From Chloranthus sessilifolius (lineage: Eukaryota > Streptophyta > Magnoliopsida > Chloranthales > Chloranthaceae): a DNA stretch of 64,000 nucleotides. The notes under the pieces are model-generated. The model had not been told where the DNA came from. It saw only the letters and a program-made list of their open reading frames with translations, and made no database searches. The stretch's first letter is position 1. Each line of letters opens with the position of its first letter. The DNA lies in contig CM037585.1 of the NCBI GenBank assembly GCA_021018995.1, forward strand, positions 126,818,831-126,882,830, in the 5' to 3' direction. Shown one piece after another: positions 83-52,999 of this stretch. The position numbers were made by a program, and so were the translations under genes.

Positions 83-1525
83 TCATGAGGCGGATGTAGT
101 GGTAGAGGGAACCGCGTCTGCAGTGGTGGGAGGGCAGACGCGTCCTCTGTGGAAGGCCGCGCGTCCAGCGGGCCACTCCCCCTCCTCGGCGAGGTAGCGG
201 TGGGAGTCCGGGTAGATGTAGCGGAGGGTGTGGAACATCAAGAAGTCCATCCTCCGGTTCATCCGCTCGTTGTTGGCCTCCATGCGAGCCAACACGTCCT
301 CGATGGTAGGACCGGATGGAGCGGCGCGCCGGCGGTAGGATGAGGTGGGTGTCGAAAGCGCGGAGTGGGCAGGTGGTGTCGGTGAGGCTGTGGTGTGGGA
401 GGGAACCCTCTCCACAGATGGCTCTGCGAGAATAGGGTGTGCCCCACCCACGGGTGGGTCATGCTGAGGTGGTGGGGGTGGTGGCGGTGCTACTGCTGCT
501 GCTGCTGCTGGGGCGGGAGCGGGACCCGGAGCTGGTAGGGTTCGCTTGAGAAGGTTGTAGCTACGGGTCCATGAAGACTTCGTAAACGTCTTCACACGAT
601 CCGTAGCCCTCACCTCGTGAGGTGAGATGGTGTAGGAGGGCTCGTCGGAGTAGCACTCCAACATGCTCGATATAAGGCGAGCATAGGGCATCTTTTCTTT
701 GGGCCTCATGTTGCCCTTCATTAACTTCCCCTTGATGTACTTCATCCCCTCTAGGATGACCATTGTGGCGTTGAACCACCGGCCACAGAAGGCCGCATAA
801 AGTGCATGTTGCACTTTGTCCACGCGCTCGGTGTTGTGGCGCATCGGGTAGAGGTTGCACTTGATTATGGAATCAAGCATCCACATGTAGGGTGGAAGGT
901 CAACTCTCTTAATGGAGGATCCTGACCCCTTCTTCCCATTGGTCATACGGGTCATGACCTCCTCGAAACGGGGTTCCTCCTCAAAGGGTGGGAAAAGAGT
1001 GGTCTCCGGGGTGAAATCGAGGTAACACTCGAGTACCTCATGGATGTGGCGACGAGTGATCGTATAGAGACGACCCTCAATCTTGGTTATAATACAATCG
1101 TCAGTAGGGCCATCGGTTAGCCCTTGGTAAAAGAGTCTAACCAATCTAGGGTAGTAAGAACCCCGGATTGGTTTGAGAAGGTTGCCGAGTCCGGCGTTGG
1201 TGAGGTAATTTCGAGCCCATTGGGTCTCGCCCGGTAAATCGGGATTGGTGAAAAGGGTAGGGTCTATGATATATTCGACCTCAAAGGTCTTTGCCGTCCA
1301 CCATTCATTTGGTTGTTCAACATTGGTGGGTGGTGGTGGCATGGGGGTGGGCTCGCGGGAAGACTCGCGCGTAGACTCGCTCGTCGAACCGGAGGTGGTC
1401 TCCGATGCCGACGGTGATGGAGTCCTCACCGGCGATGGGGTAGGTGGTGGTGGCGCGGCGTTCTTACGCCGAACCGAGAGTTTAGAAGTCGCCTTCTTTG
1501 AAGATAAACGGGTTTTAGGCGGCAT
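83..1525 (-). CDS. Plant transposon-associated protein (PF20167-like), 480 aa
   Basis: The reading frame is uninterrupted from ATG to stop. Residues 1-66 are rich in Pro, Ser and Thr. A globular region at about 70-330 includes the stretch ARNYLTNAGLGNLLKPIRGS. A poly-Ala/Pro segment at about 333-352 is encoded partly by a GCA/GCT-type triplet run near 489-511. The C-terminal part at about 405-445 is probably coiled (EDVLARMEANNERMNRRMDF). This order matches the 'putative plant transposon protein' family, which is scattered through plant genomes next to LTR elements and has no established biochemical function. It is the only long undamaged frame in the window, which suggests recent insertion or selection. 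The TATA box about 235 bp upstream supports this start. The family call is from recognition, not a search. Confidence 0.75.
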   Translation of the reverse strand: MPPKTRLSSKKATSKLSVRRKNAAPPPPTPSPVRTPSPSASETTSGSTSESTRESSREPTPMPPPPTNVEQPNEWWTAKTFEVEYIIDPTLFTNPDLPGETQWARNYLTNAGLGNLLKPIRGSYYPRLVRLFYQGLTDGPTDDCIITKIEGRLYTITRRHIHEVLECYLDFTPETTLFPPFEEEPRFEEVMTRMTNGKKGSGSSIKRVDLPPYMWMLDSIIKCNLYPMRHNTERVDKVQHALYAAFCGRWFNATMVILEGMKYIKGKLMKGNMRPKEKMPYARLISSMLECYSDEPSYTISPHEVRATDRVKTFTKSSWTRSYNLLKRTLPAPGPAPAPAAAAAVAPPPPPPPQHDPPVGGAHPILAEPSVERVPSHTTASPTPPAHSALSTPTSSYRRRAAPSGPTIEDVLARMEANNERMNRRMDFLMFHTLRYIYPDSHRYLAEEGEWPAGRAAFHRGRVCPPTTADAVPSTTTSAS

Positions 1526-1768
1526 TTTGACGAAATTTCTGGTAAAAACTAGGGTTTTCGACTTGAAATTGAAGAATATACTCGAGCCTAGGGTTTACCT
1601 TAGGCTTCGAAGGCGAATGCGAGCAATTTCAGATGTGAATCGGCGGAAAATCCAAACCCTAGAGTACTCGGTTGGTTGGAGAAGAAGAAGAAGATGAAAC
1701 GCCCAACAACCCCAAGCAAGAAAATTTTCGAATGGGGAATAAAATCCCCAATCTTATATATATAGCCC
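1526..1768 (-). promoter_or_regulatory. Promoter and 5' leader of the PF20167-like gene
   Basis: On the minus strand a TATATATA core at 1755-1764 lies about 235 nt before the ATG at 1525. The leader contains a CTTCTTCTTCTTC pyrimidine stretch (1681-1695) and CTAGGGTTT (telo-box-like) motifs, both common in plant 5' leaders. The transcription start is inferred, not shown. Confidence 0.45.
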
Positions 1769-5961: not shown

Positions 5962-6121
5962 CTATAGTATACATACATACATACACATCAATTTACACTC
6001 TTAATTCACATACAGCTTTTTTTATTGAGAAAAGAATCTATATAATTTCTAACGCATGCTCCTCTCTATCTAAAATCTTAATGAAATGAAAATTTTCTTT
6101 AATTTTTAAAAAGGGTCTCAC
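5962..6121 (-). other. Inferred 160-nt intron between gag and protease of element A
   Basis: On the minus strand the gag frame ends ATCCAAG|GTGAGA and the protease frame begins TATACTATAG|GTACTC. Removing 160 nt joins the two in phase at a Gly codon. The interior is A/T-rich with a pyrimidine stretch, as in plant introns. Element C has the same arrangement with 161 nt. Splicing is inferred from sequence only. Confidence 0.55.
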
Positions 6122-7505
6122 CTTGGATGACGTCATGCACGTTCCCTGCTTCCTGAGCAGTGACTGCATAGGCTCTCCCCTGGACGATCGGTTTCCTTGC
6201 TTGAATTGGTCGTGGTGCTGCAACTGAAACCGTCTTTCTCTTATCCGTCTCGGGGCAATCCTTGATCAAGTGGCCCACCTTGCCACATCGGAAACAACCC
6301 CTAGTTCCCGATCTACAGTCCATCGTCCTATGAGGCTTGCCACACTTTGCGCAAGTCTCCCGAGGTGCGGAAGAAAGCGATCACGAGAACCACTGTGATA
6401 GTGGCGGATGAACATGGCGGGGCTCTCATAGTAAATAGGTCTCCCGACGCAAGTAATGGAAACCTCTGTTGGTGTTGTTGTTCTTTATTCGCCGGTCTTA
6501 AAACCCCCTTATGGCCTGTGGCCTCTGATTTTGGGCCATGAACCTCGGCTTTTTGTTCACCGGTTCGTAGTGCCCCGATCTTCCTTGTTCATTTCCTCCT
6601 CTCTGCTGCTCCCTCTGTCTATATCTATTTGTATTCTCCTCTTCAACTACCAGTGCTTTACTCATGACCTCTTCATAGGTCCTCAGTTGAAATGGAGCTA
6701 CGCCTCCCCTAACCTCCGGCTTCAAACCTTCTTTGAAACCTCTTGGACTTCATCACTTTCGATGAGCAGCGTAATCCGAGCAAAACGGGCAAATCGTAGA
6801 AACTCTACCATATTCTCTCCTTTGTCATTCTCCTTGTACTAACTGCAAAAAATTGTATCTCAAGTGGTTCCTCACCACTTAGAAAATATTGTTTGTTGAA
6901 CTCCTCAACAAACTCCTCCCAAGTCCAAGGCAACTCTGGGGTCTCCACAGGCGAGTCCGTATCCCGGACTCCCCCCAAGGCCCAGCCTCCCCATCCAACA
7001 TGTAAGCTGCCCATCTTACACTCTCATCTTCCGTGCAAGTTAGCACGCTAAAGACTTTCTCCATCTCCATCAACCAGTTCTCAGCGGCCATTGTGTCTGC
7101 CTGCCCAGAAAATGAAGGAGGTCTCATCCTCCTAAACTCTGTAAATGATGAGGGCACAGGCAACGCAGGTCCTACAGGTGGTGTAGGTGGCTGCTGTTCT
7201 CTTGATGCATGAGCTGCAAAGGATGCGGCTTGTTGTGCCATGGCAGCTGCCATAGTCTCCATAGTGTGCATCATCCTTTGTCGCTCCTCTCTATCTTCTT
7301 GTCTTTCTCTCAATCTTTCTTGTTCTCTTAGATCTTGATCTTGATGATCTCGATCTTCTTCATCCCGTTGTCTACTACTACTGCCCCCTGGGGCCTCAGT
7401 ACCTCCTAAAGGCACTCTATTTGTAGGAGAGATGTAACCATCTCCACTCGTGACTCCTCTCTCCTCCCCTTGGTGGCCTCTTCCTCTAGATGACATTTGG
7501 TGCAT
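6122..7505 (-). pseudogene. Element A gag with two zinc knuckles
   Basis: The N-terminus starts at 7505 (alternative Met at 7496, MSSRGRGHQGEE) and is rich in Arg, Glu and Gln. The capsid region reads FRRMRPPSFSGQADTMAAENWLMEMEK, then after a frameshift near 6990 LPWTWEEFVEEFNKQYF, and after a second shift KSKRFKEGLKPEVRGG. Near the C-terminus are CAKCGKPHRTMDC and CFRCGKVGHLIKDC (a CCHC knuckle, about 6270-6345). Gag packages the element RNA. At least two frameshifts and one stop make it a pseudogene. Confidence 0.85.
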
Positions 7506-7579
7506 TTGAAACTAAAGTTTAGTTAGCGAAGCCCCTATGTTCGGACGAAAGAACCCTTGTCGAATTGCTAAAAGAAAAT

Positions 7580-7944: not shown

Positions 7945-8024
7945 CTAGAAGAAGTCCTCTGGAGGTGGCCCGACTCGCCGGGATCAGCGTCTCCTGAAGC
8001 CTCGGCAGCTGCTAGTAGTGGACC
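7945..8024 (-). other. Acidic open tail in LTR A (degenerate copy)
   Basis: After the GCAG|GT junction the minus-strand frame reads GPLLAAAEASGDADPGESG. A one-base shift then gives PPPEDFF-stop. It corresponds to the tails in LTR2 and element C. A translated product is not shown. Confidence 0.35.
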
Positions 8025-12633: not shown

Positions 12634-12714
12634 GGTGCAAGGAATAGTCAAGTCCTTGAGCTTGAGGTTGGTCCTGCTCATGTTCCGGAAGTAACAGAGC
12701 CTATCTTTATATAG
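12634..12714 (+). other. Open acidic tail in LTR H
   Basis: From the CACAG|GT junction 26 sense codons are followed by TAG. The frame reads GARNSQVLELEVGPAHVPEV and ends TEPIFI. The phase is the same as in LTR1, LTR2, B and C. Confidence 0.35.
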
Positions 12715-17589: not shown

Positions 17590-17676
17590 TCACTGTGCCA
17601 AATCCAAGTAAACTTCTCCCTTCAGTAGGTCACTTGGATTCTCCTCAACTCTAAGATACTGATCAAGAGCTATACC
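17590..17676 (-). other. Open acidic tail in LTR1
   Basis: From CACAG|GT the minus-strand frame is open for 28 codons to TGA. It begins GIALDQYLRVEENPSDLL and ends YLDLAQ. The phase matches the other LTR tails. Translation is not shown. Confidence 0.3.
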
Positions 17677-18130: not shown

Positions 18131-20159
18131 CGGTCTACTTGTCAATGTCCACTCACTGTCAATGTTCGGATATATTCTCAATATTCACATTCACTCTCAG
18201 ATACGGGATTCAAAGTTGATACTTAACTTAATAACTCAACACTAAGTCTATCTTGTTTCTAAAGTTTAGAGTCCAATAATCATATTGTCTTAGTTTTAAT
18301 TAAAATGAGTCACAGTGTGATAGACTTTACCAATCACGCTTTTCAAGGGACGGGGTTCACAGTAACCTGGATATACTTCGTGTGGTATCCCATACTACCA
18401 TAGAGGAGTTTCATCTATACATGGACACCTACATTCCAAGTTTCATGTGCTTAGGAAAGAAACCTCACTGTAACTCAGGCTTAAAAGTCGTGTCTTATCG
18501 CATTACATTTTCTTATCATACATAGTTCCTTGTTCATTCGAATTCAAAGTTCGTATGCAAGTTAGACAAAACGGATCATAAGCAAAAATAGAAGGAATCA
18601 GACTAAACATAATGAACTTATCATCAGAACGAATCAGATCAAAGCATAACTGAACATAACAAATAGGATCATAAGCTAAAAAATGGAACAATCAGATCAT
18701 ATAAAGAAATAGGATGGAAATAGAATATATCAAAATAGAAAACAAAGTATCAGATCAAACATCAAATTGAAACCATCAGAAACTATGAACCAAATTCAAA
18801 AAATATAATTTTTCATTGAGTTTTCCCCTACCTTAAGTTCAGAGCTGTTCAAAGCAACACCAATGTCCTTATCGACGGCTTCCCGTTCCCAATCTAATAA
18901 GGACTGATTCTAATTACTAATAACTTTACATATTTAACTATTCTCTCAAAATCGAGGCAGAAATGGGCAAATTCGTGCTAACTCAGAACTTGACCCAACT
19001 TCCTGCTCAACTTTGACCTTTAAATAATTTGATTCATTAAATTATTAATTCATAAAAGTTATAGGACTTGTTGTCCTCTTTCCAACGCCATAAGAGTCGT
19101 GTTAATCGGGGTTCAGAGTAAAAAGGTATGGCCAAAATATTGAAGCTATATCAACACATTCAGTCAAAATCGAATGGTCAATTTTTTTCAAGGCATAGAA
19201 CTCGAACGTTCGATTCTGACAGGTTCAGAACTCATTCAACTTCCTCTTCCTTGATCTAAATCACCCAAAACTCATTTTCAAGCATCCTAATCACCTATAA
19301 ATCATAACCAAACTAATTCTAACCAATTTAAATTGAATCTTACCTTTCAATCTCGCGTATGCAAATTGACGAATCGGCGCTTGTCCTCGCACACATTCAA
19401 GGGATTTGAAACCCCTTTTTCCCTTTTAAGATCGGATCGTCGTTGGAGATCAAATCAATGGGGTTGGCGATTCAATCTCTCCGACGCACACGACACACTC
19501 AAGATTCTCCAACGCAACTACAAAGAATCAAAATGAATTTATGAAAGAGGGTTTGGGTTTTTGCCACCTTTGTGGGTCGAAATCAAGCCAATTTCCACGC
19601 GTTCTTGTGATCATCAATCGAAGAAGGATTTGTGGGGGAGATCGACAACGTCGGATCTCGGCACGGATTCGAAAGTGAGGAGAACGACGTTTTTCTCAAG
19701 CTCCCTTCTCTTTCTCTCTTACTCTTTCTCTCTCTAAAACCAAAAACTCCCATCACTTTGCAAATGGGTAGTAGCTTCTAAATGAAGCTTTGCCTTTTTA
19801 TAACTTAAAGGGGCTGTGTCACAGCCCGATTTTTGGTGCTCCGAAAGCCGTGCCATCAGCACAACCCTCAAGGTCGAGCCCCACAAACCTTTACAATACA
19901 TTTGGTATAAGCAAGCCAAAATTTTACTCTAACGAATTCTCATAAAGAAAAAAAAAAGAATATAGTCATGGTCCTTACTGGCAGTCCTTGTCCCATGCCA
20001 ATTCATGGGCATAAGAACTTACCCAAGCCGTTATATGAATGTGCATCCCAAGAGTTTTATCAAAAGCATACCGAATTTAATTACATTCAATATGGAGGCT
20101 TTATATACCAAGCCGTGCCTAACACTCTCAACTCACTCTCAAAGTACGCAATGGGTCTC

Positions 20160-20264
20160 CTAGAAGAATTCCTCAGGAGGAGGCTCTGATTCCTCAGTGG
20201 GTACGTAGTCTGAATTCCCTAGATCAAAGTCTCCAGAAGTCCTTATTGCCGCTAGTCCTGAACC
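20160..20264 (-). CDS. Short acidic open tail in LTR2 (34 codons from acceptor-like AG)
   Basis: From CGCAG|GT (minus strand) the frame is open for 34 codons to TAG. It starts GSGLAAIRTSGDFDLGNS and ends DYVPTEESEPPPEEFF. The final part is matched in element C's LTR by DYISEDDSEIHPEEFF with several synonymous third-base differences, which suggests selection on the peptide. There is no ATG at its start, so if real it is the last exon of a spliced message. Function unknown. Confidence 0.4.
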   Translation of the reverse strand, partial: GSGLAAIRTSGDFDLGNSDYVPTEESEPPPEEFF

Positions 20265-21239
20265 TGCGACGTATAGTCTAAGGGATGAGCTGCATCCTAG
20301 CTCAATAAGGAAACAAAGTGAACATATAGATTAAATCTCACATATATGTTAGCCGTTTTGAGAGCACAATTTACTAGGTATCACATTTTAACAAAACAAT
20401 TGATATAACTGAAATAACAAAAATGGATACAACAGATTTCTTTTCATAGTGTTGTTTGTTCTCATCTTACTGGTTTAGTTATGAATTCGGCCTAATCACT
20501 TCAACCTTTAACTTAAATAATCTCTGAGCAATATAGCATCGAGCCCCGATGGAATATCCACCATCATCGTCTACTAGACAATTGTTACGTGTATTCGCTG
20601 AGAATACTGTCCAAGCCCCTTCTCGTAGGTGGCGGGATCTATTATTAAATCTACATCCCTGGGATGTGCTATAAGTGTACGGATTGGCCGCCGTACCGGT
20701 CACGGATATCCTGCTGCGTCAGGCGTGGGTATCCCGCCACGTCGGTGGGGTATTCTAATCAAACCTCAAATAACAAAATATCGGTGTGCATTACTTATAG
20801 TTATTCACCGTGACTTGTGCTAATTTTTAGTACATTAGGCCTTATCATTATGCTTTAGTTTTACGGTTTGTTTTCGTCTGTATCCCTGGGATACAACTAG
20901 TTTAATACATCATTTAGATGCCCTCATTACAATATTCCGTCCCCTGGGGATTTCATGGTTTCACCTTGAAACCCACGCACACACCCCCTATTGAAAGATC
21001 ATACAATACTCACCCTTTTCATAGTGTAACACTGCATATATGGGATGACGAAATAAATACATGTTTCAAGAATATTCCCTACCTCAATGAATTTCAAAGC
21101 ACGCTTTCTCGTAGAGGTTTACACTTCACGATCGTACGTCAAACCTACATTTCATGTATTTAGAATATGCTTAGAAAGGTTATAAGAATAATTGGAGCGC
21201 ATAGCCTCCATGTTTCTGCACCAATAATTTTAAGAACTG

Positions 21240-21480
21240 AGTGGTGCCTCGCGCGAGGGAGAACCAATCCCCTCTCGAGCGGTCACTTGACCTCGCTCGA
21301 GCGGTTAAATCGAGGTCGCTCGAGCGGTTAATCGAGCCGTCTGAAGCTTTACTGGGGACCTCGCTCGAGCAAGCTTCCCTTTTTGTTTTGGGAACCGCTC
21401 GAGCAAGCCCAGAGCTGTATTTTTATAGTTTGTGCTCGCTTGAGTGATCCCTTTAGACCGCTCGAGCGAGGAGCGATAAT
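21240..21480. repeat. CTCGCTCGAGCGG palindrome array in LTR2
   Basis: About ten copies of CGCTCGAGCGG-like words with short spacers. The array occupies the place held by the TCGATTAATCGA array in the homologous LTR A. Confidence 0.85.
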
Positions 21481-22326
21481 TTTTACACCTCGATCTGTTC
21501 GAGAAGCAACCTCTTACTCCATTTATGGTCCCTTTTTAGCATCAAAACCATTCAACCGATGCTTTATATATGCAACAAGAACACACCTAAGTATTATATG
21601 CATTTAACACACCTCATTCGATGTATCTTCTATAACTTAATCCAATCTTCTAACACGAATGGAGGAAATCCCTGGTCCCTCACCCAATTCCTTTCCTGAT
21701 CCTCTATGGCCTGATCCAACAAGCCCCACCCCACTCCTCTTTACAAAACCTTCTCTCCTTTCTCTCTATTCTTCCTTCTCTCCTTCTAAGATTTAATTAG
21801 GTTACGTATGGGAGGGACCTCTCCCCCACTTTTACTTATATAGTGAAAGAAAAAAAATTAGTGTGTTTCACACATATACGCCCAGTGTATATATGTTAAA
21901 TTGGTTTCCTTGTGAACCACACATATACGTGATTGGCACATGACGTGTACGGTTCCCAAAAATCTGGGGTTATTACAGGCTAATTCCCCTATTAAACACA
22001 TATACACCCATTTGGGTGTTAAGATTTATCCGTCAAGCTTTGTTCCGATGTGGAACACATACACCTAAGCAAGGTGTTTCGTATTTCACCAAAAGATCCC
22101 TGGTTTGGTGTGTAGCTTGTACACCCAAACCACTTATCCACTGGATTAGGTGTTAAGCTTATACATCGAAATTGTGTATGTGTTTGGTCCAAAAATCTTA
22201 TACAAGGCTCAAACAGACCCGAAATGATCCTGTTTAAAAAATCTGAAACGATGACGCGTTTCTTAACGGACCCACACCTAATCAGGACCTATGGTGTCAG
22301 AAATGTTTTTTTGGGGGGATGTTACA

Positions 22327-26445: not shown

Positions 26446-26540
26446 GTACAGATTGTTATCAGAACCTTGGGCTTAGAGAAAACCCCAGGCCAGTACCGGA
26501 GCAAGAGGCGAATCTTTCGCATTGGGGATTTTACCCATAG
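26445..26540 (+). other. Open tail in LTR B
   Basis: In the shared phase the frame is open for 31 codons from the acceptor to TAG. It begins GTDCYQNLGLRENPRPVPE and ends HWGFYP. Confidence 0.35.
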
Positions 26541-27001: not shown

Positions 27002-29535
27002 TGTAATATCCCAGATATTTCGAACCCGAACTCGATCAACCCCGTGTGCGTGTCCGGCACAGCGACCGATGTCGCCTTAGGTTTTTGAATAAATAATTAA
27101 ATAATATTGGAATAAATGATGTGCAAAGAGTGCGATTTAGAGCTTGATTGGACGTTTATTGGAAAAGCAGTGCACCGACTCGTGGTGTGCCCTTAACACC
27201 GAAGCTGAACCTTAGAGGATAAGTGGATAGGACTGAACACCTTCGTTCGGTGTGTGCATCTAACACCGAATCAAAACCTAAAGGTGTGCAGATAGAATTT
27301 AGGGTGCAATATCAAGGATATTTAAGGGTTTTCGTTGGGTTATAAGAGAGGGAAGGCTTCTCATGTAAGCCATTCACCTTGCAAAATTTGAGAAAGAGTG
27401 AGAGTTTGAGAGAATCAGAGAAGATAAGATTCTACCATGCGTGAGCCCTTGCACACAACAATCCTGACTTCGTCGTTGATGTTTTGTGCACTCTGTTCGT
27501 CATTGATCGGTTGCCGTAATGGAGCGTGATTCTCGGAAGCGGTAGAGATTCGGGAACTCCAAATTGTTCGAACCCCTTTTTCATGAATGTTGCATCTCGC
27601 GATCATTTCCCTTGCTTTGATGAGGTAGAAATCAATCTGTGATCGTAGATGACTTCATCTTGTGCCTCTCTCTAATCAATCTCTGTGAAATCACCGTGGA
27701 AATTTGAAGTTTCGTTCCAAAGCCCCCTTTCGCTACACTTCTTAAAGCCGCGAAATCGATCAGCAAAAGGTTAGATTTCCTTTGATGATTAATGGTCTAG
27801 ATTAGTAGATTAAATGCTTGGATTAATTACTTAATATGTGTGTGGAAAGTTTGGGTGAAAATGACGAGAAGCCGTGAGGAAAATGGGTTTCTGAAACTGA
27901 TAAATCACGGAGTTTCTGAAACTCGCGCGCCTGAGCTTTAAAGCTCGCTCGCACGAGCAGCCTTCAAAAAGGCTTCTGAGAGCCTCGCGCACCCAAGGAA
28001 CAGAAGAAGAAAGTGGCTCCAGTGAACCTCTGTTCCTCGCTCGTCCGAGCTGGCTATACCACTGAAACTCTCACGCCAGAGATTCATTTCTTGCGCACCT
28101 GAGCAGCCTTCACTAAGCCTTGTGCACTCGAGGAACAAGAGGAGAAAGAGGCTTCAATGAGCCTCTATGCCTCATGCGCCCGACCCTGAATCTTGCGAGC
28201 CCGAGATTCAGAGTTTGGGCATTTTGGCTTATTTTTCTGAAATTTTTCTAAATCTCTTGCGTGTGTGGTTACCAAACCTTTGATATATGGTTATTGATTG
28301 TCTTAGGATATGTTGTGAGCATCAACCACACTGATAATATATTTCACATCGGTTTGCGTGAAATCATACCGAGGTAGGAGAATCTCAAAATCACTTACAT
28401 TCTGTTTTAATTCATATGGATATTCTGAAATCTTCAAACTTGCATATAACATCTGAACCTTGCATCTGAAAGTATGAATATGATTAAGAACTCTAAATCC
28501 AAAATAAGAACTCTGAAAATCTGAATTTATCGTGAAAGTGAAAATGCATCTGAATCTTGTACACCTGAATCCTGAACTCTGAACTCTGAATTATGTGTTA
28601 TAATATGCATCTCAATTATGTATTAGAATTTTCATCTGATTTAAGGTTCTCTCGAACGAACCCCTCAATTCCTGAACAATGTCAGTTATCTTGGCGCAAG
28701 TTACCCTCATAACGCAGGGGCTTCTTGCATTCCTAAAAAACTGTTCATTGAACGACGATGGCTAGGTAGGGGTTCCCATCAGTATTCCTGCTTTTAAGTT
28801 ATAGAGACTTGGGAGGTTGATTTAAGTTGAGATTTAAGTCATGAATTAGACAAGTTTTGCATATAAAACTAAGAAACAATGAGCATCTGAAAGTCCTTAC
28901 TTGTTTAGAATCTGATTTAAGAATCTGCATTGAAACTTCGAACATGAATCTACATCTGATCCTTGTATTTAAAATTCAGTCATTTAATCTATTTTGAATA
29001 TCTTTTTTGAAAACTATATTAATTAAGATATGATGTGATTGAGATGAGTTTCTTATACTAAGCTTAGACTATTAGCTCACTCCAACTATACATCACAGGT
29101 ACTGATTTAGACATTGCGGCTTGAGGATAGGAGAGTGACTGACTACATTCCAGAGGATGATTCTGAGATTCATCTTGAAGAGTTCTTTCCGGATTAGGAT
29201 TCTTTCTTGTCTTGGTGTATTTCATTTTGTGAGACTAGATACTTGGGCTTGGTACGTCCGGCCTATTTAGTTTATGTTTGGGAATCATGTAATTATTATA
29301 TCTTATTTTGTGAACCATATTTCGGTGATGGTCGGCCTCACTGGTGGTTCATTTCGGTTCTTTTGTCCACGTGTTTTCACATGGAATTAGAACCGTTATT
29401 TTTTGGTATAGAAATGGAGCTTCCTTTCATTATACTATGATAATTGTCTGTGTTCTGTTCGGCTTATCGATTTATCGATAGGTTGGCAAGCCGACCTTCC
29501 CGATATTTCGAATATGGGAAATTCGAGTCTTCACA
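27002..29535 (+). repeat. 5' LTR of element C, 2534 bp
   Basis: It starts TGTAATATCCCAGATATTTC and ends ATTCGAGTCTTCACA. U3 carries repeated CACCGACTCG...TTAACACCGAA dyads (27173-27275). A donor-like CAAAAG|GTTAGA is at 27770 and the acceptor CATCACAG|GT at 29098. Between them lies an array of CTCGCGCGCCTGAGC-like words (27915-28210). The hairpin is at 29324-29342, with a one-base loss in the right arm compared with the 3' LTR. Confidence 0.9.
27915..28210. repeat. GC-rich dyad array (CTCGCGCGCCYGAGC words) in C 5' LTR
   Basis: Irregularly repeated CTCGC...GAGC words, e.g. AAAGCTCGCTCGCACGAGCAG, spaced by AGGCTTC/AGCCTTC phrases. A matching array sits in the 3' LTR at 50455-50775. Confidence 0.8.
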
Positions 29536-30928: not shown

Positions 30929-31089
30929 GTATGAATTACTATGGATTGTGAGTCTAAGTTCTCGTATTTTAGATAAAGAAGATGCATAAAATGAGATAAT
31001 CTTAGGAATTGCTCTTAGGTAATTGCTCTTAGGTAATGCAATAAACCTCTTGTATGAACATCTAATTGAATAACATGCGTGAAAACTAG
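30929..31089 (+). other. Inferred 161-nt intron between gag and protease of element C
   Basis: ATCCAAG|GTATGA opens it and AAAACTAG|GTACCTTA closes it. Removal keeps frame from gag into protease at the same Gly codon as in element A. A branch-like CTAAT lies about 30 nt before the acceptor. It contains a small direct repeat of GCTCTTAGGTAAT. Confidence 0.55.
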
Positions 31090-48769: not shown

Positions 48770-49522
48770 TTAGTTCGGTGAGTAATGGTTCGATCAAACA
48801 TCAAAATTCTATGTAATCTTGTCTTTGTATAACTTATGTTAGTATATTTACTCGTATTTCGTTTGAAGTGGTTTTTCTTTCAGACTGGTGCGTCATGAAA
48901 TTTTTCACACTGTAAGGACATAAGAGCCAGTGTTGTTACTTTCAGAAATTCAAAATTTTGTTTCAATTATACAAGTATATTGACAATCATAAATTAATGG
49001 TCCGAATTTTTGTTCACATACTGTAACTGAATGCTTTCTGCTTAGTTGTCACTATCTAGGATTGCTGCAGCTGTGTATACTAGTTGTCGCTATCTAGGAC
49101 TGTTGCAGGTGTGTATGCTAGTTGTCGCTATCTAGAATGGCTGCAGGTATGTATTTTAATTGATTGATAACAAGAAGTTATCTTAATCCTGGAAATACCT
49201 TAGTTATTAATGTTCTCGACTAGTTTGGGCATGAGTGTCTGATAAAATCTAGTTGTAACAACAATTATAGAGGTGTTCCGCTTTTCGAATCTTAGTTGTT
49301 TTGAATGGGTGCATGGTTAATTGGCTGACTGAAACGCTGATGCCCTGGTGCATCATCGTATACTCGATTCCCTTCTTTTGGAGTAAAAGTTCTGGAATGT
49401 TTACCTTTAGTTAGAGGATTGGATTCTCTTATGCGGTAAGATTATGTTAGAATGGGTACTACCTTCAAACCAAACACCACATATAGCATTTTCGAGGATG
49501 AAAACTTCTAAGGAGGGAAGAA
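48770..49522 (+). other. 3' untranslated region and polypurine tract of element C
   Basis: A 38-bp unit (AGTTGTCGCTATCTAGGA...) occurs three times, at 49044, 49082 and 49120. TTTTCGAGGATGAAAACTTC precedes AAGGAGGGAAGAA at about 49510-49522, the polypurine tract next to the LTR start. Element B has a closely similar ending (55240-55280). Confidence 0.7.
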
Positions 49523-52088
49523 TGTAATATCTCGGATATTTCGAATCAGAACTCGACAAACCCCGTGTGCGTGTCCGGCACAACGATCAATGTCACCTTA
49601 GGTTTTTGAATAAATAATTAAATAATATTGGAATAAATGACGTGCAGAGAGAGAGGTTTAGAGCTTGATTGAACCTTTAGTGGAAAAGTCGTACACCAAC
49701 TCGCGGTGTGCCACTTAACACCGAAGCTGAACCTTAGAGGATAAGTGGATAAGTGGATAAGATTGAACACCTTTGTACGGTCTGTGCATCTAACACCGAA
49801 TCAAAGCCTAAAGGTGTGTGGATAGAATGTAGGGTGCAAATATCAAGGATATTTAAGGGTTTTCATTACGTTATAAGAGAGGGGAGGCTTCTCAGGTAAG
49901 CCATTCACCATGTAAAATTTGAGAAAGAGAGTGTCAGAGTTTGAGAGAATTGGAGAAGAGAAGATTATGCCACGCATGAGCCCTTGCACAACAATCCCGA
50001 GTTGGTCGTTGATGTTCTGTGCACTTTGTTCGTCGTTGATCGGTTGTCGTAATGGAGCGTAAATCTTGGATGCGGTAGAGATTCAGGAACTCTAAACCGT
50101 TCGAACCCCTTTTTCATGAATGCTCCATCTCGCGATCGTTTCCCATGCTTTGATGAGGTACAAATCAATCCGTGATCGTAGACCACTTCATCTTAAGCCT
50201 CACTCTGATCAACCTCTGTGAAATCGTCATGGAAATTCAAAGTTTCGTTTTGAAGTCCTCCTTTCGGCAACACTTATTAAAGCCACTAAATCGATCGGCA
50301 AAAGGTTAGATTTCCTTTGATGATTAATGGTCTAGATTAGTAGATTAAATGCTTGGATTAATTACTTGATATGTGTGTGGAAAGTTTGGGTGAAAATGGC
50401 AAGAAGTCATGAGGAAAATGGGTTTCTGAAACTCAAAAATGACAGAGTTTCTGAAACTCACGTGCCCGAGCTTTAGAGCTCGCTCACATGAGCAGCCTTC
50501 AGAAATGCTTCTGAGAGCCTCGAGCGCCCAAGGAATAGAAGAAGAAAGAAGCTCTAGTGAACCTCTTTTCCTCGCTCACCCGAACTGGGTGTACCACTAA
50601 AACTCGCACGTCCAAGATTCATTTCTCACCTGCTCGAGCAGCCTTCAGTAAGCCTCGTGCGCCCAAGGAACATGAGGAGAAAGAGACTCTAGTGAGCCTC
50701 TGTGCCTCACGCGCCCGAGCTAGGTGGGTGCCATTGGACTCGCGAGCTCGACCCTGAATCTCGTGCACCCGAGATTCAGAGTTTGGGCATTTTTGCTTAT
50801 TTTTCAAAACAAATTCTAAATCTCTTGCGTGTGTGGTTACCAGACCTTTGATATATAGTCATTGATTGTCTTAGGATCTGTTGTGAGCATCGACACTGTT
50901 CGATAATATATTTTGCATCAGTTTGCGAGAAATCGTACCAAGGTAGGAGAATCTCAAAATCACTTACATTTTGTTTTAATTTATATGGATATTCTAAAAT
51001 TTTTGGACTCGCATATGACATCTGAATCTTGCATCTGAAAGTATGAATATGATTAAGAACTCTGAATCCAAAATAAGAACTCTGAAAATCTGAATTTACC
51101 ATGAAAATGAAAATGCATTTGAATATTGTACACCTAAACCCTGAACTCTGAACTCTGAATTATGTGTTATAATCTGCATCTGAATTATGTATTAGAGTTT
51201 ACATCTGATTTAAGGTTCACTCGAATGAACCCCTCAATTCTTGAATAATGTGAGTTATCCTAGCACAAGTTACCCTTAAATGAAGGGCTTGTTGCATTCC
51301 TGAAAAACTCTTCATTGAACGACGATGGTTAGGTAGGGATTCCCATCGGTATTCCTGCTTCCAAGTTATAGAGATTTGGGAGGTTGATTTAAGTCATGAA
51401 TTAGACAAGCTTTGCATATAAAACTAAGAAACAATGAGCATATGAAATTCCTTGTTTTAAATCTGATTTAAGAATCTGCATTGAATCTTCGAACATGAAT
51501 CTGCATCTACTCCTTGTATTTGAAATTTAGTCATTTAATCTGTTTTGAATATCTATTTTGAAAACCATGTTAATTAAGATATGATGTAATTGAGATGAGT
51601 TCCTTCTACTGAGCTTAGACTGTTAGCTCACTCCGACTATACGTCTTAGGTACTGATTTAGACACTGTGGCTTGAGGATACGAGAGTGACCCTGACTACA
51701 TTTCGGAGGACGATTCTGAGATTCATCCTGAAGAGTTCTTTTCGGATTAGGATTCTTTCTTGTCATGGTGTATTTCATTTTGTGAGACTAGATACTTGGG
51801 CTTGGTACGTTCGACCTGTTTATTTTGGGTTTTAGAATCATGTAATTATTATATCTTATTTTGTGAACCATGTTTCGGTGATGGTCGGTCATCACTGGTG
51901 GTTCATTTCGGTTCTTTGTCCACGTGTTTTCACATGAAATTAGAACTATTATTTTTTTGTATATAAATGGTGCTTCCTTTCGTTATACTCTGATAATTGC
52001 CTGTGTTCTGTCCGGCTTATCAATTTATTAATAGGTTGGCAAGCCAGCCTTCTCGGTATTTCAGATATGGAAAAGTCAGGTCGTCACA
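49523..52088 (+). repeat. 3' LTR of element C, 2566 bp
   Basis: It matches the 5' LTR throughout. The donor-like AAAAG|GTTAGA is at 50305, array at 50455-50775, acceptor CGTCTTAG|GT at 51649, hairpin at 51877-51896 (GGTGATGG-TCGG-TCATCACT, closed with G-U pairs as RNA). Confidence 0.92.
51649..51750 (+). other. Open acidic tail in C 3' LTR (one internal TGA)
   Basis: In the phase used by the other LTRs the frame reads GTDLDTVA, TGA, GYESDPDYISEDDSEIHPEE and ends FFSD before TAG. The 5' LTR copy (29098-29197) keeps DYIPEDDSEIHLEEFFPD after a small indel. Confidence 0.4.
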
Positions 52089-52093
52089 CTATG

Positions 52094-52866
52094 AGTGTTA
52101 GAGTTCTGTTAGGACATCGGGACCATCTATTAATTGAAACCTTTGTTTCATTTTGAGAAATTCATATGGTGCCTTGAAAAAGAGCGAAAATCGTACGCAT
52201 AAAAGAAAACGATCACGAATAAACTAGGCAACTGCTGGAAACAATGGTCAACACAATGGCCAAGTAGGCTACATTGCTCGCGACTATATTACGAGGCACT
52301 ATGCACACCTGTCCATCTGCGATGGTTGTGTTATGCTCACAGTGTGGAAAGCAATGCAAGACGGAGAAGTGTAGATGGGACACCGGTGCATGTTTTAGGT
52401 GTGGGAAATTGGACATCTGATAAGAGACTATCCCAAATTGGAGAGAGAGCGACGACATCGGCAACAACTCAGGATCCCTCTCGGTCCACAGTTTAGGATC
52501 GTACCCTTTCCATCTCTGCACGAGATGCTCAGGCAGCCAGAGGAGTTGTCCAAGTGCCTTCTCGCTCTTTAGATCCAATAGTAGCTAGAGCATCGGCAGT
52601 GCGACAGACTTTATGTATCTCGTCATTCGCACCGATTGATACATGTGCAAGATGTGAAAAGCAGCATAGGACAGAGGAGTGTAGGGGCTCATCAGGCGCA
52701 TGCTTCAGATGTGGTCAGGTGGGACATTGGGTAAAAGATTGCCCCGAGATGAATCAAGGGAGGATTACATTGGCATCCACTCTGGGATCATTTCTACCTA
52801 CAATTCAGGGTCATACCGACGCTGCATCGACACACGATGCCTAACCAATCAATGACGTTATCCAAG
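52094..52866 (+). pseudogene. Element B gag remnant with duplicated zinc-knuckle region
   Basis: A short N-terminal piece (LLETMVNTMAK) jumps directly to CSQCGKQCKTEKC / GACFRCGKLD (about 52335-52425), so the capsid domain is deleted. A second, better kept copy follows: CARCEKQHRTEECRGSSGAC and CFRCGQVGHWVKDC (about 52645-52745). It runs on to GHTDAASTHDA, a stop, and the ATCCAAG exon end at 52866. Confidence 0.75.
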
Positions 52867-52999
52867 GTAAAAGTTCATTATTGATTGTCAAGATTTTACC
52901 TTATTCTTAGTTGATGAATGTCCCTGGAAGTTGTATACTATTGTGACAGTTTAAATGCCATCATATATACACTGAGTTGAAATTTAGGCATGAAACCAG
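52867..52999 (+). other. Decayed gag/protease intron of element B
   Basis: ATCCAAG|GTAAAAG at the left and CATGAAACCAG|GATACC at the right are in the same place as the A and C introns, about 133 nt long. The exon after it has one extra base compared with A and C. Confidence 0.4.

Follow-up and report, generated by a model that had tools for sequence, protein, structure and literature searches.

A short reading frame in chromovirus LTRs of Chloranthus sessilifolius, a probable terminal exon of a spliced Gag

Long terminal repeats (LTRs) of retrotransposons are normally taken as non-coding. In the genome of Chloranthus sessilifolius (2.17 Gb), a short frame found in the LTRs of several Ty3/gypsy chromovirus families is almost certainly a real coding exon, and it is best accounted for as the end of a spliced Gag protein: a donor at the end of gag would be joined to an AG|GT acceptor in the 3′ LTR (the bar marks the splice junction), a reading to which we give a probability of roughly 0.7. 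Its direct grounds are coding constraint on the frame, a conserved donor at the gag end, matching phases of donor and acceptor, and copies in the genome from which the gag/pol intron is missing. The frame was noticed in a stretch of 64,000 nucleotides (C2:126818831-126882830), called here the window.

LTR frames in the window and across the genome

The original prediction listed seven LTR frames, and all are present as written. Three of them (A, LTR1 and LTR2) lie on the minus strand and the other four (H, B and both C copies) on the plus strand; LTR1 and LTR2 run into stops when read on the plus strand. As claimed, the frame is fully open in H, LTR1, LTR2 and B, and is interrupted by a single TGA in the 3′ copy of C, while the 5′ copy of C is damaged by a 2-nt loss and stops and the 5′-LTR copy of A by a deletion. 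The features are as follows.

20160..20263, minus strand: predicted coding exon of LTR2, GSGLAAIRTSGDFDLGNSDYVPTEESEPPPEEFF followed by a stop, the first base of the first codon being provided by the upstream exon
20262..20310, minus strand: conserved acceptor block of LTR2, with a putative branch-like CTCAT and GACTATACGTCGCAG|GT
19817..21977, minus strand: LTR2, a solo LTR of the F2 family with no adjoining internal region
17590..17675, minus strand: exon copy of LTR1, open
12635..12714, plus strand: exon copy of H, open
26446..26540, plus strand: exon copy of B, open
7945..8023, minus strand: exon copy of the A 5′ LTR, with a deletion
29099..29197, plus strand: exon copy of the C 5′ LTR, decayed
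51650..51750, plus strand: exon copy of the C 3′ LTR, with one in-frame TGA
27002..29535, plus strand: 5′ LTR of C
49523..52088, plus strand: 3′ LTR of C, 86% identical to the 5′ LTR

In the 3′ LTR of A, just beyond the window, the exon is intact and open and reads GPLLAAAEASGDADPGESDLAAGEELEPPPEDFF up to its stop. Comparison of LTR2 with C by eye agrees with the original prediction that the S, E, E and last F codons differ at third positions only.

The 17-mer GACTATACGTCRCAGGT, located just before the exon, has 19,772 exact copies in the genome (9,947 + 9,825), and its reversed control has none. Among 40 sites taken from the first 100 listed places of this 17-mer, blind to the downstream sequence, 30 have the predicted frame open over 27 codons or more, as against 5 and 3 for the other two frames, and a P..E[EDN]F-type ending is found in 26. 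A branch-like CTNAY motif is present on the acceptor side in all 40 sites, and the stretch before the acceptor is very conserved. In many copies, including LTR2 (20262-20310, minus strand) and its homologues, TGAGCTA and TAGCTCA form a 7-bp inverted repeat with a loop before the acceptor, and AGCT is also repeated directly; 88.0% of cells are paired in this putative hairpin versus 86.9% in shuffles. C-type copies (L030, L055, L056, L058 and similar ones) have a 6-nt duplication that yields frame-keeping tandem acceptors, such as CACAGGCACAGG.

F2 is an abundant family. Both LTRs of its elements outside the window contain the frame, and the two copies are mostly separated by about 9.4 kb. The exon is open in all 19 readable LTR copies of ten F2 elements, most of which have gag and pol split into several frames. 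Up to the stop of each family, the frame is open in 22/22 aligned copies of F2, 16/31 of C (counted with L022_573 left out) and 12/28 of B; copies with too little sequence or without a recognisable block before the exon were left unaligned. Decay is more advanced in the older families, where about one copy in two is broken. LTR1-type LTRs are found about 4.5 kb apart at C10:28499825, 28504369 and 28508831, a spacing that suggests short, possibly non-autonomous elements in tandem.

Pfam domains of the F2 element L010 are arranged as gag, zinc knuckle, protease, RT, RNase H, integrase zinc-binding and SH3, which fits the gag-PR-RT-RH-INT order of a Ty3/gypsy chromovirus. The integrase core was not reported in this search, and the chromodomain (PF00385) narrowly missed its cut-off (23.0 against 25.1 bits), with its frame interrupted by a stop. 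These elements are putatively placed in the Tekay clade, a name that came with the original prediction. Elsewhere in the window, positions 83-1594 (minus strand) scored 36 and 34 bits with a cut-off of 45. A pattern scan of viral contigs for relatives gave 123 matches, none of which was confirmed.

Codon-position constraint on the frame

Five family pairs were chosen by hand, with no family in more than one pair, and compared in nucleotide alignments; they differ 42, 41 and 91 times at codon positions 1, 2 and 3, respectively (p=2e-7). The flanks have no position bias, with 9/15/12 differences in the 33 nt before the exon and 33/37/33 in the stretch after the stop. The families were represented by intact-frame copies, a choice that removes stops and is not in itself a bias to synonymous change. 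Addition of the H-G pair gives 51/54/101 (p=2e-6), and pooling of all 105 pairs, which are non-independent, gives 1093/1119/1657. The latter set includes C1, D, G, M2 and Q, which are outside the five hand-picked pairs; H is absent from it and was tested in the comparison of B, H, LTR1 and G. In this B/H/LTR1/G group the third-position excess is weaker or absent: the pairs among B, H and G have none (H-G 9/13/10, B-H 13/19/15, B-G 12/17/15).

Selection on an LTR-encoded product, as the original prediction proposed, is seen between families of this genome in a dN/dS-type check, where pN/pS is 0.39 when pooled and 0.29, 0.22, 0.44, 0.39 and 0.61 by pair; within families the proposal does not hold in the same way, and decay is almost neutral. 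Changes on internal branches at positions 1/2/3 amount to 11/19/24 in C, 21/27/31 in B, 15/15/14 in H and 3/3/1 in F2, and those on terminal branches are near neutral. Such a weak signal within families is to be expected if inserted copies are free to decay.

The segment might instead be a non-coding promoter, terminator or RNA element with a frame open by accident, a view favoured by the strong conservation of about 40 nt before the exon and by the sheer number of 17-mer copies (19,772). We regard it as very improbable, since the third-position excess is confined to the exon and 92 of the 105 exon pairs are wholly in phase; the codon-position test likewise disfavours the tail as a promoter element.

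The gag donor and the source of the upstream exon

The exon starts at an AG without an ATG, a point that the original prediction counted against itself. The start at the AG fits, and an ATG within the LTR exon would be unnecessary if the matching phase-1 donor of gag is used. In F2, A and C, gag ends with GAC RTY ATC CAA G|GT (VHDIIQ|G), a near-consensus donor in phase 1, and the unspliced gag frame stops a few codons past it. The pol frame is in another register and resumes at AG|GT in the same codon phase as the donor. A donor for the LTR exon must have exactly the phase of the gag donor, as read for both in F2, A and C. In these families the acceptors of pol and of the LTR exon alike begin with AG|GT, and either of them completes an identical CAA G|GT codon.

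5962..6121, minus strand: predicted gag/pol intron of A, 160 nt by coordinates, phase 1, donor CAAG|GTGAG after 6122, pol exon from 5961 (TATAG|GTACTC)
30929..31089, plus strand: predicted gag/pol intron of C, 161 nt by coordinates, phase 1, donor CAAG|GTATG, pol exon from 31090 (ACTAG|GTACC)
52854..52871, plus strand: gag donor of B, GACGTTATCCAAG|GTAAA, first intron base 52867, no clear pol acceptor
6879..7511, minus strand: 5′ part of the gag open frame of A, identified by similarity to the gag of L010

All ten F2 elements have the donor (L018 in altered form), and so do the window elements A, B and C as well as L027, L029 and L030. Ranked with approximate donor frequencies, it is the first or second of 367-389 GT sites in 9/10 F2 elements and the third of 346 in A, and in shorter scanned stretches the first of 162 in C and of 69 in B; the rank printed for L018 belongs to another site, as the scan pattern missed its altered donor. 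A further match to the donor in L028 (C9:38270840-38278300) is not counted for the model, because its strand is opposite to that of the flanking LTR frames; it probably belongs to another element, and a nested or inverted element is hinted at.

The F2 intron, lying between gag and protease, is 148-149 nt long in the two copies measured. A gag|pol junction without the intron is found at two places in the genome with 2 mismatches each, and the reversed control gave 0. One of them, L156 (C4:15307350-15307750), is an F2 copy that reads ...VHDIIQGMLQMYEKGCYVAHDARVLIDPGSTHSF unbroken with the intron gone; the other, L157 (C8:27652300-27652700), belongs to another family whose intron-bearing form was not seen. 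The F2 LTR frames on either side of L156 are separated by only some 4 kb. The simplest account of these copies would be spliced RNA copied back to DNA, and because of them the gag donor appears to be functional in vivo.

In the proposed mechanism, the LTR frame would serve as an alternative 3′-terminal coding exon of Gag. When the donor is left unspliced, translation would end a few codons later; when it is joined to the nearby acceptor, Gag-Pol would be produced; and when it is joined to the AG|GT acceptor of the 3′ LTR, the whole pol region would be skipped (about 7.5 kb in F2). The last product would be a short mRNA encoding Gag and, at its end, an acidic tail (about 28-35 residues) that in most families finishes near PPEEFF, with a predicted joined tail such as GSGLAATRTSGDFDPGDSDYVPTEESEPPPEEFF. 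This may allow an element to make excess Gag with a tail that Gag-Pol does not have. The length that such an intron would have counts against the model. For the 30-nt junction of F2 gag with the LTR exon, no genome copy was found at up to 3 mismatches, versus two for gag|pol; absence of such a retrocopy would be unsurprising if the RNA lacks the polypurine tract and the start of the 3′ LTR.

The upstream exon might otherwise lie within the LTR itself, where transcription from a TATA near the LTR start would give a first exon spliced to the tail exon, and hence a small LTR-only protein or an upstream ORF. Donor-like AG|GT sites are indeed found by eye about 200-380 nt past TATA-like boxes in F2, A and C-type LTRs, and in L030 an in-LTR exon with an in-phase ATG could also supply the start. 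In F2, however, use of the best-placed donor would leave a TGA immediately ahead of the junction in 9/10 aligned 3′ LTRs (L018 is not comparable), and other G|GT sites in three F2 elements give a lead of at most 18 codons (3-4 of 28-31 sites; L013 was unscored), while A has no in-phase ATG by eye. With the in-phase stop in F2, a leader exon inside the LTR was rejected as an improbable source. Slightly less probable again is that the tail forms the end of pol or of a third ORF. Such an arrangement has a parallel in CRM and Reina elements, whose gag-pol frames enter the 3′ LTR according to the available parts of PMC3059260 and PMC3605345, and L010 has an in-phase GT at the end of pol; C also has a strong donor-like G|GTGAGT there, but past the pol stop. 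That GT is missing from the other two F2 copies read (L013 and L016), A has only a weak GT ahead of the pol stop, and in the C, A and F2 copies read pol always stops before the LTR, with no uninterrupted frame joining the two. This candidate was rejected as well, since no donor is common to the families read. Just past the chromodomain stop of C, the window has a well-formed intron-like stretch (48773-48884; G|GTGAGTAATG...TTTTTCTTTCAG|A).

For the reading as a spliced Gag end, an independent hint of alternative Gag tails may come from Solanaceae, at the level of protein models. One F2 gag used as a query gave 11 matches, leading to Solanaceae gag models, and a follow-up protein search gave 59, of which 19 were read together with P0010. 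Six clusters from Lycium and Solanum dulcamara, P0010, P0012, P0015, P0016, P0019 and P0021 (9, 22, 7, 8, 9 and 33 members), end no more than about 5 residues from the gag/protease point, with the short tails GTDIGDPPL, GTDAQPGDPPV, GTDDRFADPSV, GTDARFGDPPA, GTDTYFGEPPP and GTDDRFAEPSA. P0013, P0017 and P0020 continue into protease (VVTG(I/T)L...DPGST), P0024 and P0037 have other short tails, P0039 and P0045 differ at their ends, and P0014, P0018, P0023, P0026, P0028, P0032 and P0042, which come from short contigs, have frayed or partly pol-like ends. Isoform labels, taken here as a sign of transcript support in NCBI model names, are carried by four of the six cluster names. The last 41 residues of P0016 as a query matched 11 proteins, each either one of these models or close to one, and the Solanaceae tails could not be clearly aligned with those of Chloranthus.

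Known spliced Gag RNAs and meaning of an LTR exon

Spliced Gag mRNAs are already known; what would set the Chloranthus elements apart is that a chromovirus LTR contains a coding exon of Gag. The barley Ty1/copia element BARE1 has a separate spliced Gag RNA (PMC3735527), and shGAG of the Arabidopsis Ty1/copia element EVD is reviewed with Ogre and BARE1 (PMC12786077). The likeness, as far as the available parts of these articles describe it, is that one element forms a separate spliced Gag RNA so that Gag can exceed Pol; in Chloranthus such an RNA is predicted from DNA. In the Copia element BARE1, by the same partial source, 104 nt are spliced out and translation ends three residues after Gag, whereas the Chloranthus elements are Ty3/gypsy chromoviruses in which the putative splice reaches a 3′ LTR exon with a conserved tail. 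The gag mRNA of Drosophila copia, cited in PMC3735527, is similar in that splicing removes pol (2.9 kb), but its description there does not include a conserved coding exon in the LTR.

Among Ty3/gypsy elements, the available part of PMC6317226 describes a partially spliced intron between gag-pro and RT in Ogre; the present intron is instead a short one between gag and protease, with a probable second acceptor in the LTR. In CRM group A and some Reina elements, the LTR also codes for the end of an element protein, but that part is continuous and is the end of integrase in the portions of PMC3059260 and PMC3605345 concerned, whereas the Chloranthus frame is closed off by stops and would have to be joined by splicing. 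CERV of Cer1, a Ty3/gypsy element of C. elegans, is comparable in that splicing of its mRNA extends a protein that shares peptides with GAG by a 3′ coding part; as given in the available part of PMC10309623, CERV is a five-exon product whose 3′ ORF is between pol and the LTR, outside the latter. In the parts available, the sunflower shGAG article lacks Tekay in its highly expressed set (PMC7730604), and the term "splic" is absent from the LORE1 paper (PMC2832683) and from one on active sunflower elements including Tekay (PMC11728184). Among open-licence articles, where silence is weak evidence of absence, no spliced coding Gag exon in a plant chromovirus LTR was found.

A broader reading, held tentatively and at somewhat below an even chance, is that one donor and two acceptors form a switch between Gag-Pol and Gag with an LTR-encoded tail, the tail being a functional Gag domain under selection across many chromovirus families, perhaps across flowering plants, and the LTR itself a protein-coding exon. 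If the LTR frame is indeed the end of a spliced Gag, this genome would contain a protein exon in thousands of its LTRs, solo LTRs included, and the strongly conserved acceptor of that exon might also be used by host transcripts. Gene annotation would be affected, as would comparisons in which LTRs are assumed to be free of coding constraint, and the question of how a plant element produces Gag in excess of Pol would have a Ty3/gypsy answer.
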